Shown here one piece after another: positions 969-11,591 of a stretch of DNA of 33,690 nt (its first letter is position 1; each line of letters begins with the position of its first letter). This DNA is from an uncultured Bacilli bacterium (lineage in GTDB: Bacteria; Bacillota_I; Bacilli_A; RF39; UBA660): positions 1 through 33,690 of the forward strand of contig CANRAE010000005.1 of assembly GCA_947628525.1 (NCBI GenBank). The letters run 5' to 3'. The position numbers and the translations under genes are program-made. The notes under the pieces were generated by a model. That model had not been told where the DNA came from. It worked only from the letters and a program-made list of their open reading frames with translations, and made no database searches.

Positions 969-2096
969 TTAAATCGGCAATTTATTTATTCTGTTAGTTT
1001 TAGCTGTTACAATATTCATATATTTATTATAATAACCTTTATATCCTTTTAATATATCATCATTCATTTGATCAAAAGAATATACTTTAAAATCACTTTT
1101 AACATTACCATTTTTATAATAATTATAAGTAAGCATGACATTAGGATCACTAATGATTAATTGATTATCTTTTTTTTCCACATCTACGGATACCATTAGT
1201 CCTATTAAGCGATCCATCCCTTCTTGTCCTGATAAGAAATTACCTAATGAATATATTATAAGTGTATTACCTATATAGTCAATAGGTTCAATAACATGAG
1301 GATGTGTTCCTATAATAATATCCACACCTAAATTTGATAAATAATTAGCTATTTGTTCTTGTGAGGAAGTAACACTTGTATTATATTCTTCACCCCAATG
1401 CATAGATACCAATAATAAATCAACTTTATCTCTTATCTTTTCTATATCATTTTTCACTATTTGCTCATCATATATATTTACATAATAATTGTTATTAGGT
1501 TTTATACCATTAGTAGTTGTCGTATATGCTAAAAGAGCATACTTAATACCATTCATTTCTTTAATAGGAATATTATTTCTTTCTTCTTGGGAATTATATG
1601 ATCCACTTGCAAGAACATTCTTTTTTGTTTGCCAATAATTATTAGCACTTATGATAGCCTTACTACCGCAATCTAAAACATGATTATTAGCAAGACTCAC
1701 TAAATTGAATCCAGCGTCAATAAAGGCGTCCCCTACTTCTTGTGGTGAATTAAAAGCTGGATAACTAGATAATCCAAGAGAAACACCACCTAAAACTGTT
1801 TCTTGATTATAAAATGCTAAATCATGTTTTGTAATAAACTTTTTTACAGGTGATAACATTTTATAAAAATTGTATTTACCATCTTCATATGCATCATCAT
1901 ACACACTACTATGGATTAACGCATCCCCTACCATCACTAATGATATTTTATTATTATTTTTCTTAGTAACTTGCATTTGTTGATCTTCATTATTAAGACC
2001 CTTATTATTATTTATAACCATAATAACTACCAAAAAAAGAAACAAAGCTAAAATTACTTTAAATCTATATTTTAACCTTATCTTTTTCTTTGCCAT
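969..2096 (-). CDS. CapA-family protein (poly-gamma-glutamate synthesis / metallophosphatase-like), membrane anchored
   Basis: N-terminal TM segment; VMVGDALIH...YNQETVLGG...SLANNHVLDCG...SMHWGEEY...GTHPHVIEPID...YSLGNFLSGQ match CapA/PgsA family motifs. Confidence 0.88.
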   Translation of the reverse strand: MAKKKIRLKYRFKVILALFLFLVVIMVINNNKGLNNEDQQMQVTKKNNNKISLVMVGDALIHSSVYDDAYEDGKYNFYKMLSPVKKFITKHDLAFYNQETVLGGVSLGLSSYPAFNSPQEVGDAFIDAGFNLVSLANNHVLDCGSKAIISANNYWQTKKNVLASGSYNSQEERNNIPIKEMNGIKYALLAYTTTTNGIKPNNNYYVNIYDEQIVKNDIEKIRDKVDLLLVSMHWGEEYNTSVTSSQEQIANYLSNLGVDIIIGTHPHVIEPIDYIGNTLIIYSLGNFLSGQEGMDRLIGLMVSVDVEKKDNQLIISDPNVMLTYNYYKNGNVKSDFKVYSFDQMNDDILKGYKGYYNKYMNIVTAKTNRINKLPI

Positions 2097-4476: not shown

Positions 4477-4534
4477 ACCAATCCCTCCGTTTTCTAAGAA
4501 GTATTTTAACATATATATATTTAAAATGCAATAA

Positions 4535-4559
4535 ATAAAGATACTTTGTGCATCTTTAT
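4535..4559 (-). terminator. Putative terminator closing the four-gene islet
   Basis: Inverted repeat ATAAAGAT / ATCTTTAT with a 9-nt loop, followed on the minus strand by TTATTGCATTTT (weak T-tract). Confidence 0.5.
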
Positions 4560-4612
4560 CCAAGCTACAATTAGTCCTACATAATATTAATTAAGCTTTA
4601 TTTAGTTGCCAA

Positions 4613-5689
4613 CTATAACAACATATCAAATATCTTATCTAATTCATTATACCATACATTATTCCAATTTTCTTGTTTATACTTTTTTATATTTTCAATG
4701 TAATGTGGTATATTTTCATAAAAATTTTTAAACTCATTTTCAGAAAATTCTCTTATTCTATGACCCAAATTATACTTCTCCACCATCAGGCAATTATAGT
4801 GTTGCTCATATGTGTCTAACGGAAAAAGAAGCATAGGTAAATTACCATATAATGATTCACTTATTAATTGGTGACCGGAAGATGAAATAACAAAATATGC
4901 ATTTGAAAAATCTTCATCAAACGACAGACCAAACGGCTTGAAAACAAAATTATTATTTCCCTTGTATTCATCAAATTCAATATTTGTATAAATAACAAAT
5001 GTTATATCCGTACAATATTTTAACATTTCCAAAATTTGAATGAAATCGGTTTTATTATCAGAATATGGTGAAAAATAAACTATACCCTTTTTTACATCTA
5101 TATATTCTCTAACTATTGGTTTAATAATTGGCGGTAGTATGTATACATTGTCATTTGGCACATTGATTTTAAAAAACGATGAAATAATTCTATAATCAAC
5201 CTTAGGTGCAAAATATTTTAATCTAATAATATCTTCATTTATAGAATAATTTTCTATATTATAGTTTTCAATATACAAAAATTTGGATTGTTGTTCCATA
5301 CAAATAACTTTCGTTCCCGTCGCATAAGCATATTGAATAACATTAGGTTCATAGTCGCTAATAACTAAATCAAATTGAGGTTCTTTATTAAATATGTTTT
5401 GCAATTCAATAGAAAACTTTAAAAAAGATTCAAACTGATCAACTCTAGAATTTTTATATTTTAATAAACAATCAGCAAAATTGATTCCTTTATCTGTGCA
5501 AGAAATCCAAGGAATATCTATTGCAACAATTTTAATATTGGGGAAAATACTTTTTATTGTATTTATTTTATTCTTTGTTGTAGCAACAACTATTTCTACA
5601 TTCCTTGACATTAATAAATTAATTACATTTATTTGACGATTAATATGACCATTACCTATTCCACAAATTCCTATTAATACTCTTTTCAT
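4613..5689 (-). CDS. Glycosyltransferase, MurG/GT1-like (GT-B fold)
   Basis: N-terminal MKRVLIGICGIGNGHINRQINVINLL glycine-rich nucleotide-sugar-type start; FGLSFDEDFSNAYFVISSSGHQLISESLYGNLPMLLFPLDTYEQHYNC resembles the GT-B C-terminal donor site. RBS AGGAGC. Confidence 0.7.
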   Translation of the reverse strand: MKRVLIGICGIGNGHINRQINVINLLMSRNVEIVVATTKNKINTIKSIFPNIKIVAIDIPWISCTDKGINFADCLLKYKNSRVDQFESFLKFSIELQNIFNKEPQFDLVISDYEPNVIQYAYATGTKVICMEQQSKFLYIENYNIENYSINEDIIRLKYFAPKVDYRIISSFFKINVPNDNVYILPPIIKPIVREYIDVKKGIVYFSPYSDNKTDFIQILEMLKYCTDITFVIYTNIEFDEYKGNNNFVFKPFGLSFDEDFSNAYFVISSSGHQLISESLYGNLPMLLFPLDTYEQHYNCLMVEKYNLGHRIREFSENEFKNFYENIPHYIENIKKYKQENWNNVWYNELDKIFDMLL

Positions 5690-5697
5690 AAAAGCTC

Positions 5698-6660
5698 CTA
5701 TATTAACCTAATACTATGATTAGTTTCATCACAAACTAAATGTACTTTAGATCCATTAACAATAACAATTCTAGGCGAACTGTGTCCTAAATCAAAATTT
5801 TTAATATATGGAATATTAAGCTCCCCTAGTCCTCTTGTTATCGCCTCGTCAAGCGAAATGTCTGTATAACTTTCTTCTTCTGTTCTACCAAAAATCAAAC
5901 ATTTAGCATATTTAAACCATCCGGCGTTTCTTAAATGCCATAAACATCTAAATATAGTTTCATTACTCATATAGTTAATGTCAAAATACCAAATAGTTCC
6001 CTCTTCTTTATGATTTTCTATAAATTTGCAAGTACAATCATATTTAGTTCCTAACAAATCAATTAAGCATTCTAAATATCCGCCAATTATAATCCCTGTA
6101 ACATTAATATTACTGGTTGATAACCAACAACTGATTTCCTTTTCCCCTGATTCTCTCATTTTGTATTTAAAATCGTTTTGTATAATTTTATCTCCAAAAA
6201 GTAATTTGTAATTACTTGACAGTTCTTCAAAACTAGCTTGTTTTAAAGCTGCTGCATTATAAAAATAAATAGTCATAACATTATATTTAGTAGTTAATAT
6301 ATATAATAAAATAGTCATATCTGATTGTCCTTGCACCCATTTATAATTATCTATAATACAGTCTAAATTTACCTCATCAAGTAATTCAACTAAATAATCT
6401 CCACCAGTAACACCAACAATTAATTTTATCTGTTTATTTTTTATTAATTTTGTTAATTCTTTGGCTCTATCAGAAGCCGAACTACTCGTACCATTTACAC
6501 TTTTCCTAGTGTATTGGTCTTCTATGACATTTAACTTATTATTTTGGAACCATTTTATTACCTCATCTAAATCATGTATTTTATTTTTTTTCACTATACC
6601 ATTAGATGGTGATGCAATGGATATACTATCCCCCACTTGTAAATATTTTGGAATAATCAT
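5698..6660 (-). CDS. S66-family peptidase (LD-carboxypeptidase / microcin C immunity MccF-like)
   Basis: LQVGDSISIASPSNG; ASDRAKELTKLIKNKQIKLIVGVTGGDYLVELLDEVNLDCI; VQGQSDMT nucleophile region; IIIGGYLECLIDLLGT; FDLGHSSPRIVIVNGSKVHL His region. Confidence 0.85.
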   Translation of the reverse strand: MIIPKYLQVGDSISIASPSNGIVKKNKIHDLDEVIKWFQNNKLNVIEDQYTRKSVNGTSSSASDRAKELTKLIKNKQIKLIVGVTGGDYLVELLDEVNLDCIIDNYKWVQGQSDMTILLYILTTKYNVMTIYFYNAAALKQASFEELSSNYKLLFGDKIIQNDFKYKMRESGEKEISCWLSTSNINVTGIIIGGYLECLIDLLGTKYDCTCKFIENHKEEGTIWYFDINYMSNETIFRCLWHLRNAGWFKYAKCLIFGRTEEESYTDISLDEAITRGLGELNIPYIKNFDLGHSSPRIVIVNGSKVHLVCDETNHSIRLI

Positions 6661-6672
6661 TTTATCCCTCCC

Positions 6673-8019
6673 CTATAATACCTTTTGAAAAAGTTTAGTA
6701 TCAGATACATTCAAACTATTTAAACACTTTGCTGTGAACTCATAATACAATTCGCCTAAAGGCTGATATTCATTTAAATTGTTGTTAAATTCATGCGAAA
6801 CAGAATATAGATATCTTAATAATTTGCTAATATCTCCAAATGTCACAGCCTTATCAATAACTTGATTAACTAGTGCCATGTTGCTTAATAATTTGCAATT
6901 ATAAATAGTACCATTTCTAGCAATTCTTTTAGCATTTTGTAATCCTTTATATATTTCACCCCAAAAATTTATCTTAAAATATTCGGGATTTTCAAAATCT
7001 ATAATCGTATCATTACTATTTGCAATAATTATAAACTTTATTAAATCTCTTGCGTTTATAAACTGGGAATCAACTTTAATATCATTATCTTTTACTAGAG
7101 AAAATAAGTTGCGGGACCACTCTTCTATATTCCTAGAATCAGCATTTTTACATAAACTATAAGTCAAATAAGAAACATCACAATTTAAATTATTAATATG
7201 AACAACATCTAAAACCTTCTTTATATGTTCAGACTGATTAGAACCAATTATATTTATAATTTTACTGTTTTTATATTGATTATTTAATATAAACATAAAT
7301 TCCTGTAAAACATATTTTATCTCGCCATTAGACTTAAAAGCATCTTCATACGTTAATTTTTTTACTATATTGTATAATTCTTGATCAGCATATAACTGAG
7401 ATTCCAACAAATAACTGTTATCGGATAATAATAACTGTTTAAAATAATTCTCTATAATATTTAAACTTTCATAACAAAAAGACAAATATGCTAAAACATT
7501 TTTATTATCTTGATTATCATAATGAAAAACTGAGCTATATATTAAATTAAATAATGCCTCATTATTGGTATTAGTTTGACTATTTACAAAATGCTTAATG
7601 GATTTTTCTGAAATATTACCAACTGTAAAAATATTATTTTTTTTTCCACTTGTTTTAATGATATTAACAAGGGCTTTATCAATTATAATATTTCTTAATT
7701 GTCCTAACATAGGAATAGGCTTATTAGGATGTAAGTCCCCATACCTTATAGTGAAATTGTCATCATAAATTGGTTTATCGTTTAAAAAATTATATATTTC
7801 TGCTAGACAAACATCTTTGCTAATTTGGAAATGAGGATAACCATTTACAAAATTACAATTTTTGTAATTAGAATTAGGTTTAGTAATGGAAAATGATGAT
7901 AATCCATCTTTTTCAAAATATATAAGTTGTGAACCATCATATTTATATTGATCAATTAAATAATCTTTTAGAAAAGATTTGTATGCTCCCAAAATTTTAT
8001 TTTTACTACTAATCATCAT
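6673..8019 (-). CDS. Divergent arginyl-tRNA synthetase-like protein, apparently lacking a canonical HIGH motif
   Basis: HPNKPIPMLGQLRNIIIDKALVNIIKTSGKK parallels ArgRS (S)PNxxKPLHxGHLRNxxIGDALARIL; NIIGSNQSEHIKKVLDVV parallels ArgRS VxGAdQxxHFxQlf; FIIIANSNDTIIDFE and LLRYLYSVSHEFNNNLNE parallel the post-KMSKS and DALR regions. Confidence 0.7.
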   Translation of the reverse strand: MMISSKNKILGAYKSFLKDYLIDQYKYDGSQLIYFEKDGLSSFSITKPNSNYKNCNFVNGYPHFQISKDVCLAEIYNFLNDKPIYDDNFTIRYGDLHPNKPIPMLGQLRNIIIDKALVNIIKTSGKKNNIFTVGNISEKSIKHFVNSQTNTNNEALFNLIYSSVFHYDNQDNKNVLAYLSFCYESLNIIENYFKQLLLSDNSYLLESQLYADQELYNIVKKLTYEDAFKSNGEIKYVLQEFMFILNNQYKNSKIINIIGSNQSEHIKKVLDVVHINNLNCDVSYLTYSLCKNADSRNIEEWSRNLFSLVKDNDIKVDSQFINARDLIKFIIIANSNDTIIDFENPEYFKINFWGEIYKGLQNAKRIARNGTIYNCKLLSNMALVNQVIDKAVTFGDISKLLRYLYSVSHEFNNNLNEYQPLGELYYEFTAKCLNSLNVSDTKLFQKVL

Positions 8020-8728
8020 TTAAATCACCATCAATATAAATTCTTAAAACTGGAATTTTTATATTACCATACAAATACTTAATTACGCTTGCTCTATGCT
8101 GACCATCCCTTATATAAGGTTCATCATTATATAAAATAATGTATTTCCCTAGGTATGGATAGCCATTTTTTTTAATACTTGATAAAGTTTCCATAAGTCT
8201 ATCATAATCGCTGTCTATTAAATGATTTGAATTAAAAGGTGTGTAAATTACGCATTCACTACCTTTTTGTAAAGCTTTATAACTTTCTGAACATTCCAAA
8301 GGTACAGGGTTACTATTTTTTCTTAATAACATAAAATCATTAACTTCTATTTCATCTACTTTTGTATTAGTTATTCTCGGAATAAATTCATATAAAAATA
8401 ATGACATATATATTGGATCAATTAGTTTATAATTATAACCAATTGGGTAATTCTTTTCAAGAAAAGAATAAATTTCCTCCACAAGTATATTTAATTCAAC
8501 ATTAGACAATACCAAAGTTTCACTATTAAATGTAAAATTTATTCTTTCATAGCATTTTTCGATTTTAAAATTTTTCATTTGATTCAAAGTAAAATTATTA
8601 AGATATTTATTTTTATTTTGCATATATTCTATCTCACTATAACATCTTAATATGATTGAAATTACATGGATAAAATCAATTTCATTTATCTTGTTTTTCT
8701 CTTTAATCCAACATATTTTTTCAAACAT
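8009..8728 (-). CDS. ParB/Srx-like domain protein (DGQHR motif)
   Basis: C-terminal part LGKYIILYNDEPYIRDGQHRASVIKYLYGNIKIPVLRI is ParB N-terminal/Srx-like. Start at 8728 (MFEKICWIKE) supported by RBS AAGGAGG. Confidence 0.65.
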   Translation of the reverse strand: MFEKICWIKEKNKINEIDFIHVISIILRCYSEIEYMQNKNKYLNNFTLNQMKNFKIEKCYERINFTFNSETLVLSNVELNILVEEIYSFLEKNYPIGYNYKLIDPIYMSLFLYEFIPRITNTKVDEIEVNDFMLLRKNSNPVPLECSESYKALQKGSECVIYTPFNSNHLIDSDYDRLMETLSSIKKNGYPYLGKYIILYNDEPYIRDGQHRASVIKYLYGNIKIPVLRIYIDGDLNDD

Positions 8729-8802
8729 AACTCCCTCCTTGATTAACAAAAACTAATATCTTAAATAAAAAAGGTGACTTATAGCACAATATTAATGACA
8801 CT

Positions 8803-8831
8803 ATATTAGCAAATATCAAAAAAATTATCAA
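8803..8831 (-). promoter_or_regulatory. Putative promoter of the four-gene islet
   Basis: Minus strand TTGATA-(17 nt)-TAATAT with extended -10 (TGC before TAATAT), about 75 nt upstream of the 8728 start. Confidence 0.65.
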
Positions 8832-9010
8832 GATATTTTTTACTTATTATTTTCTTTAAAATATAAAATATCAATATAATTTAATAAATATCTAATAATT
8901 TATTTAAATAATAATTAAATATGATAATAAATTAACCTTATTAAATTACATAATAAGTGCTGAATTCAATGATTATAAAACAACACCCAAGGGCAAAAAT
9001 TCAATAAATT

Positions 9011-11591
<2,581 letters not shown>

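Follow-up and report, generated by a model that had tools for sequence, protein, structure and literature searches.

In the mycothiol pathway, a glycosyltransferase (GT), MshA, and an amidase act alongside MshC. The latter is a CysRS-like ligase (PMC9437257), and resistant synthetase copies are known as the self-immunity LeuRS of agrocin 84, the SerRS of albomycin, and the IleRS2 of mupirocin (PMC5059758, PMC9437257). HisZ represents a further variation, namely a catalytically silent synthetase paralogue (PMC9437257). In the microcin C system, the S66 enzyme MccF hydrolyses an aminoacyl-nucleotide amide (PMC9239234). The ParB fold is found in the serine kinases SbnI and SerK and in the regulator EdeB, and SbnI and EdeB belong to small-molecule clusters (PMC12704722, PMC9641203). 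Here, we describe a four-gene islet encoding a ParB/Srx-like protein, an ArgRS-like protein, an S66 peptidase, and a GT, located in a 33,690-nucleotide stretch of contig CANRAE010000005.1 (assembly GCA_947628525.1) from an uncultured Bacilli bacterium, hereafter the window. Each of MccF, the agrocin 84 LeuRS, MshC, and HisZ has a single feature in common with this islet, and none shares the set. The islet is inserted between secG and eno and recurs in other genera; its synthetase-like and S66 genes are exchanged as a cassette, the synthetase-like proteins have lost their catalytic motifs, and the S66 enzymes keep Ser and His. A system of this four-gene composition was not found in the open-access literature, which is not proof of absence.

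The islet comprises four tightly packed minus-strand open reading frames (ORFs) in the region 4535-8831, the reality of which was confirmed. Their coordinates agree with the spacing described in the earlier note, with an 11-bp overlap followed by gaps of 12 and 8 bp between consecutive ORFs. The features of the window copy are as follows.

8009-8728, minus strand: putative ParB/Srx-like protein, core gene; 239 amino acids (aa) from an ATG preceded by AAGGAGGGAG
8009-8749, minus strand: the ParB-like ORF as listed, with a TTG start; 246 aa
6673-8019, minus strand: ArgRS-like pseudo-synthetase, cassette gene 1; 448 aa, assigned with hhalign against 13 ArgRS with controls
5698-6660, minus strand: MccF-like S66 peptidase, cassette gene 2; 320 aa, assigned by Pfam, PDB match, and alignment
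4613-5689, minus strand: GT1-type glycosyltransferase of the MJ1255/PF13528 family, core gene; 358 aa, assigned by Pfam and tree
4532-4562, minus strand: AU-rich hairpin, candidate terminator at the islet 3' end; -14.6 kcal/mol, z -3.06
8803-8831, minus strand: promoter-like TTGATA-17-TAATAT with TG, no better than chance in AT-rich DNA
4541-9008 (ends approximate), no strand: inserted segment between secG and eno, from blastn of the flanks against L104-L108

In the 1.26-Mb host genome, the islet splits eno from secG-rnr-smpB-ssrA. In five other genomes of the genus, eno and secG are adjacent and the site is empty, and the flank homology to L104-L108 detected by blastn ends at ~4535-4542 and resumes at ~9008-9036. 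Because the five congeners keep eno-secG uninterrupted and the homology breaks at ~4541 and ~9008, the block is an insertion. Target-site repeats were looked for around the window copy and none were found; this copy contains no recombinase gene.

Two further loci, L013 and L014, with GTs 44% and 47% identical to that of the window, emerged when the GTDB contig collection was scanned with a GT alignment. L013 encodes, in order, a ParB-like protein, a GT, an ArgRS-like protein, and an S66 peptidase, followed by a serine recombinase. In L014, the order is GluRS-like, S66, ParB-like, GT; this locus thus keeps the ParB-like, GT, and S66 genes, with a GluRS-like gene in place of the ArgRS-like one and an S66 of another clade. 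A ParB-like profile gave strong matches in 3/289 genomes of the order, these being the window genome, G034, and G711; by contig coordinates, G034 corresponds to L014 and G711 to L013. Weaker matches (E ~1e-4) occurred in G789 and G043, and the same profile revealed no further carrier in a phylum-wide sample of 299 genomes. Single-sequence searches with the ArgRS-like protein returned nothing informative from plasmids, phages, viral contigs, or GTDB contigs and found the window alone among 398 genomes of the class. One weak match within the family turned out to be a relic in a fourth genus (G051), in which approximately 60 C-terminal residues of an ArgRS-like protein are fused to the N-terminal dozen of an S66 peptidase (MIYPKRLKENDI). 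A GT match in the same genome (E 5e-4) was not counted as an islet GT. The features of these other loci are listed below.

L013 13652-15307: large serine recombinase, candidate mobiliser, directly after the islet
L014 6928-7090 and 11094-11235: duplicated tsf 3' end with terminator, integration scar
L002 (G051 contig 30), about 100-320: ArgRS-like/S66 junction relic, downstream of a PolC-type gene 3' end (by eye)

In L014, the 3' end of tsf and its terminator border the islet together with a second, decayed copy of that stretch; the two repeats are identical at 140/158 positions with one 16-bp gap. Such a duplication is a sign of integration at a gene's 3' end. The three intact copies, found in three different genera of one family, show three gene orders at three genomic sites, and the block is mobile and modular. 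Intact copies are so far known from no more than three gut-type Bacilli genomes. Chance proximity or a non-functional acquisition would accord with this rarity and with the existence of a relic; such an explanation is nevertheless very improbable, given that the set is intact in three genera, in rearranged orders, despite protein identities to the window of just 35-47%. Indeed, recurrence of the set in other genera and the empty site in five congeners place the grouping above chance. The earlier note would have been refuted had the four genes co-occurred nowhere else, which is not the case: all four families are present in L013, three in L014, and the junction relic in G051. Its description of a self-contained islet captured a real tight block, but one that is not unique, being a mobile modular block found in other genera.

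Comparison of the three intact copies revealed reversed patterns of identity. The ParB-like proteins of L013 and L014 are 71% identical, and either is 42-45% identical to that of the window; for the GTs, the corresponding values are 59% and 44-47%. The S66 peptidases show the opposite pattern, with 38% identity between the window and L013 and 25% between L013 and L014. The synthetase-like proteins of the window and L013 are 35% identical, and that of L014 is unrelated at that level. Because the two pairs of genes behave in reverse, the simplest reading of the alignments is exchange of the synthetase-like and S66 genes as a cassette on a constant ParB-like and GT core, with an ArgRS-type cassette in the window and L013 and a GluRS-type cassette in L014. 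The synthetase-like gene lies directly upstream of the S66 gene in every copy, overlaps it in L013 and L014, and retains this junction in the G051 relic. The idea of a pathway that makes or detoxifies an amino-acid conjugate, put forward in the earlier note, is strengthened by the synthetase-like gene and the S66 changing together (Arg vs Glu type) and by the co-occurrence of the families; of the precedents on which that proposal drew, an SbnI-like kinase finds no significant match in its favour, and the synthetase paralogue needs correction.

For the ArgRS-like protein, Pfam support is weak (DALR_1 0.013, below the cut-off). A two-member profile (window and L013), compared by hhalign with 13 aligned ArgRS from relatives, gave a score of 33.7 over 401 collinear columns. 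This score lies far above those of the controls (100 column-shuffled alignments, mean 16.8, sd 2.5, maximum 23.8; reversed alignment, 12.3; MetRS alignment, 19.6), which establishes full-length collinear homology to arginyl-tRNA synthetase. The 13-member alignment was needed, as the genome's single own ArgRS, which is an ordinary enzyme encoded elsewhere, did not stand out against 184 background ORFs in the same type of comparison. A PDB search with the two-member profile gave no significant match; thus, the assignment rests on profile-profile scoring with controls. In the alignment, the HIGH equivalent, HVGH in ArgRS, is MLGQ in the window and KLGQ in L013, and nothing remains of the KTRDG loop, the KMSK equivalent. 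At pocket positions that we take to belong to the arginine site, as generally understood for ArgRS structures, the Tyr, Gln, and His residues survive and Glu takes the place of Asp. The GluRS-like protein of L014 is readily recognized (tRNA-synt_1c 2.3e-13, above the curated cut-off; gltX 1.3e-24; PDB GluRS 1.2e-15), and here the KMSK motif aligns to FNVN and the HIGH position reads, by eye, as FRIT in PSEAPFRITCLRT. Since both signatures, which adenylation requires, are lost, the two synthetase-like proteins are probably not activating enzymes. That precisely these ATP signatures are missing from two unrelated synthetase types in one genetic position points to a non-activating role common to both. 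Accordingly, what the earlier note called a synthetase paralogue is better termed a pseudo-synthetase: the homology stands, but with HIGH and KMSK gone it is not an ordinary paralogue able to act as a resistant enzyme.

This property sets the islet apart from its closest counterparts. It resembles the agrocin 84 LeuRS and other resistant copies in that a synthetase relative is encoded in a small-molecule cluster; those copies are, however, working enzymes, unlike the islet proteins without HIGH and KMSK. Mycothiol biosynthesis likewise combines a GT, a synthetase-like protein, and an amide-cleaving enzyme, but MshC keeps ATP-dependent activation, whereas the islet proteins have lost their ATP motifs and the islet is without thiol or inositol genes. 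Catalytic silence is shared with HisZ (PMC9437257), which, unlike the islet proteins, is a class II, HisRS-derived protein with HisG as its partner and without an S66 or GT. The HisZ precedent, in which a silent paralogue senses its amino acid (PMC9437257), lends something to a non-metabolic role, for instance in controlling translation or a cell-surface glycan, in which the pseudo-synthetase would sense an amino acid. We consider this role improbable, as an S66 that changes with the synthetase type fits a shared substrate better and a regulated partner gene is not present.

Homology that spans the full synthetase and takes in its DALR anticodon-binding part could also mean that charged tRNA-Arg or tRNA-Glu is bound by the pseudo-synthetase and its aminoacyl group handed to the S66 enzyme; the latter, as a serine acyltransferase, would pass this group on to a glycosylated acceptor. 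Both the precedent of tRNA-dependent and synthetase-like biosynthesis (PMC9437257) and the translational coupling of the synthetase-like/S66 pair agree with such a transfer. It nonetheless appears quite unlikely. We know of no S66 enzyme that acts as an acyltransferase.

The S66 assignment is secure for both the N- and C-terminal domains (PF02016 1.7e-22, PF17676 4.7e-20, above cut-off). The best PDB match of the window protein is MccF (3sr3, 4.6e-19); the nearest solved relatives are MccF 3sr3/3tyx for the window and L013, and the BA_5613/Lmo1638 subgroup for L014. Of the catalytic triad, Ser113 and His293 are aligned and invariant. The likeness to the microcin C MccF extends to fold and family, with the window and L013 enzymes finding in it their best solved match; the differences are that the islet is without mccA, mccB, and mccC genes and that the triad Glu is Asp in the Arg-type islets. 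No ThiF-like (MccB) adenylyltransferase is present among the four islet proteins, and the coding strand of 4541-9008 has no additional ORF of at least 60 aa, a very short precursor ORF not having been searched for.

This kinship with MccF speaks for a rival account, in which the block is a mobile immunity islet directed against an aminoacyl-nucleotide antibiotic of neighbouring cells; the S66 would hydrolyse the antibiotic, the GT would glycosylate it, the pseudo-synthetase would act as a decoy that absorbs the toxin aimed at the synthetase, and the ParB-like protein would regulate. The sporadic, mobile distribution in one family, with a decayed relic, and the absence of export and activation genes from the islet suit this account, as does an Exiguobacterium plasmid on which an S66 gene stands beside genes for an AlaRS paralogue and a major facilitator superfamily (MFS) transporter. 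However, a decoy should retain its adenylate site, yet exactly HIGH and KMSK have been lost, and a conserved core of ParB-like protein and GT would be unusual for immunity alone. Immunity alone is thus unlikely, though less so than the sensor or transfer roles.

The Exiguobacterium sp. Helios plasmid (L011 204-6029; NZ_CP053558.1) encodes, in a row, a deoxynucleoside kinase, the AlaRS paralogue (595 aa), a phosphotransferase, the MFS transporter, and the S66. This row is another synthetase and S66 neighbourhood, probably serving resistance or biosynthesis. Although it shares with the islet an S66 beside a synthetase paralogue, its AlaRS belongs to class II and has the scores of an intact enzyme, and it is without a GT or ParB-like gene.

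The GT assignment is likewise secure (PF13528 3.5e-25, 89 bits vs a cut-off of 25); against TIGR00661, the score of 87 bits does not reach the cut-off of 196. The islet GTs form one clade (support 100/99). A related clade, not firmly its sister in the tree, comprises GTs of gut Clostridia and one Mollicutes-type genome, encoded in a recurrent, biosynthetic-looking cluster. By eye, these clusters (L016, L019, L021, L022, L030, and L038 in metagenome-assembled Clostridia genomes, and L008/L029) contain asparagine-synthetase-like, radical SAM, UDP-sugar dehydrogenase, epimerase, kinase-like, and YdjC-like (deacetylase-like) genes. Several of the Clostridia clusters also encode an intact second MetRS, with another MetRS elsewhere in the genome. 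The recurrent cluster has the look of a biosynthetic one not yet described, in which the extra MetRS may confer self-resistance. This context offers circumstantial support for the notion that the GT family serves synthetase-linked conjugates.

In the ParB-like protein, the DGQHR segment is invariant in the three members, and profile matches are weak (DndB, 0.025 and 0.03 in two members; PHROG 'ParB-like partition protein', 0.052). The protein has a helical N-terminus and is without a C-terminal helix-turn-helix region. With SbnI, SerK, and EdeB it shares the DGQHR region only, differing in its helical N-terminal part and in having no significant profile match; the SbnI-like kinase activity once proposed for it is thus backed by no significant match. 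Foldseek with a low-confidence model returned no fold match. No islet protein gave a credible match to an anti-phage defence system in PADLOC, and a defence role was set aside on that ground.

Signals within the islet add a few details. The ATG at 8728 is the likelier start of the ParB-like gene than the TTG because AAGGAGGGAG precedes it, and good Shine-Dalgarno sequences stand before the S66 gene (GGGGAGGG) and the GT gene (AGGAGC). The downstream hairpin noted earlier is real by folding, at the energy and z score listed above; it is AU-rich and was missed by a G+C-rich terminator scan. The TTGATA-17-TAATAT motif is present as described, but the region has 43 promoter-like sites where 47.6 would be expected, so it carries no weight. 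In the flanking operon, a PGA_cap-type gene (PF09587) lies at window positions 969-2096, between rnr and smpB among otherwise housekeeping genes.

Taken as a whole, the islet most likely represents either a small pathway for an amino-acid conjugate or the immunity arm of one. We tentatively favour a mobile and modular mini-cluster whose product is a small amino-acid-based molecule, that is, a pathway with built-in protection. In this scheme, the pseudo-synthetase would no longer activate its amino acid but would still recognize it (or an adenylate mimic, or tRNA), thereby setting the amino-acid specificity of the cassette. The co-translated S66 would act on the same aminoacyl amide, either by cleavage (MccF-like immunity or processing) or by transfer via its serine. 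The GT would add a sugar to the conjugate, and the ParB/Srx-like protein may bind a nucleotide and either phosphorylate a precursor, as SerK and SbnI do, or switch the islet on. Such a scheme would yield a glycosylated conjugate of Arg or Glu, plausibly a mimic acting on the matching aminoacyl-tRNA synthetase, the cassette itself encoding the protection.

Several observations weigh against this scheme. The islet is without an adenylation, peptide-bond, or export gene, so a complete four-gene biosynthetic route is not obvious. That the pseudo-synthetases still recognize an amino acid is argued from a handful of residues, and two positions of the ArgRS-like pocket have changed: His stands in place of Asn, and the Glu of GES is missing. 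The S66 triad position occupied by Glu in L014 is Asp in the Arg-type enzymes of the window and L013. The ParB/Srx assignment is weak, being based on the DGQHR motif alone, and AlphaFold models from single sequences (predicted local distance difference test scores of 33 and 51) were unusable, leaving the scheme without structural support.

Synthetase paralogues in known clusters are resistant copies or ATP-using ligases; here, two unrelated types stripped of their ATP motifs fill one slot beside an S66. It is conceivable, although we hold the idea with reserve, that class-I pseudo-synthetases of different amino-acid types are exchanged together with a dedicated S66 enzyme, forming specificity cassettes on an unchanging ParB-like and GT core, the dead synthetases serving small-molecule metabolism as readers of an amino acid, an adenylate, or tRNA, in Arg and Glu versions. 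Should the pseudo-synthetases prove to be specificity readers, the synthetase fold would have gained a new function. Different substrates are predicted for the Arg and the Glu version. If true, the combination of pseudo-synthetase, S66, GT, and ParB-like genes would also provide a search handle for small-molecule systems in small-genome gut bacteria.

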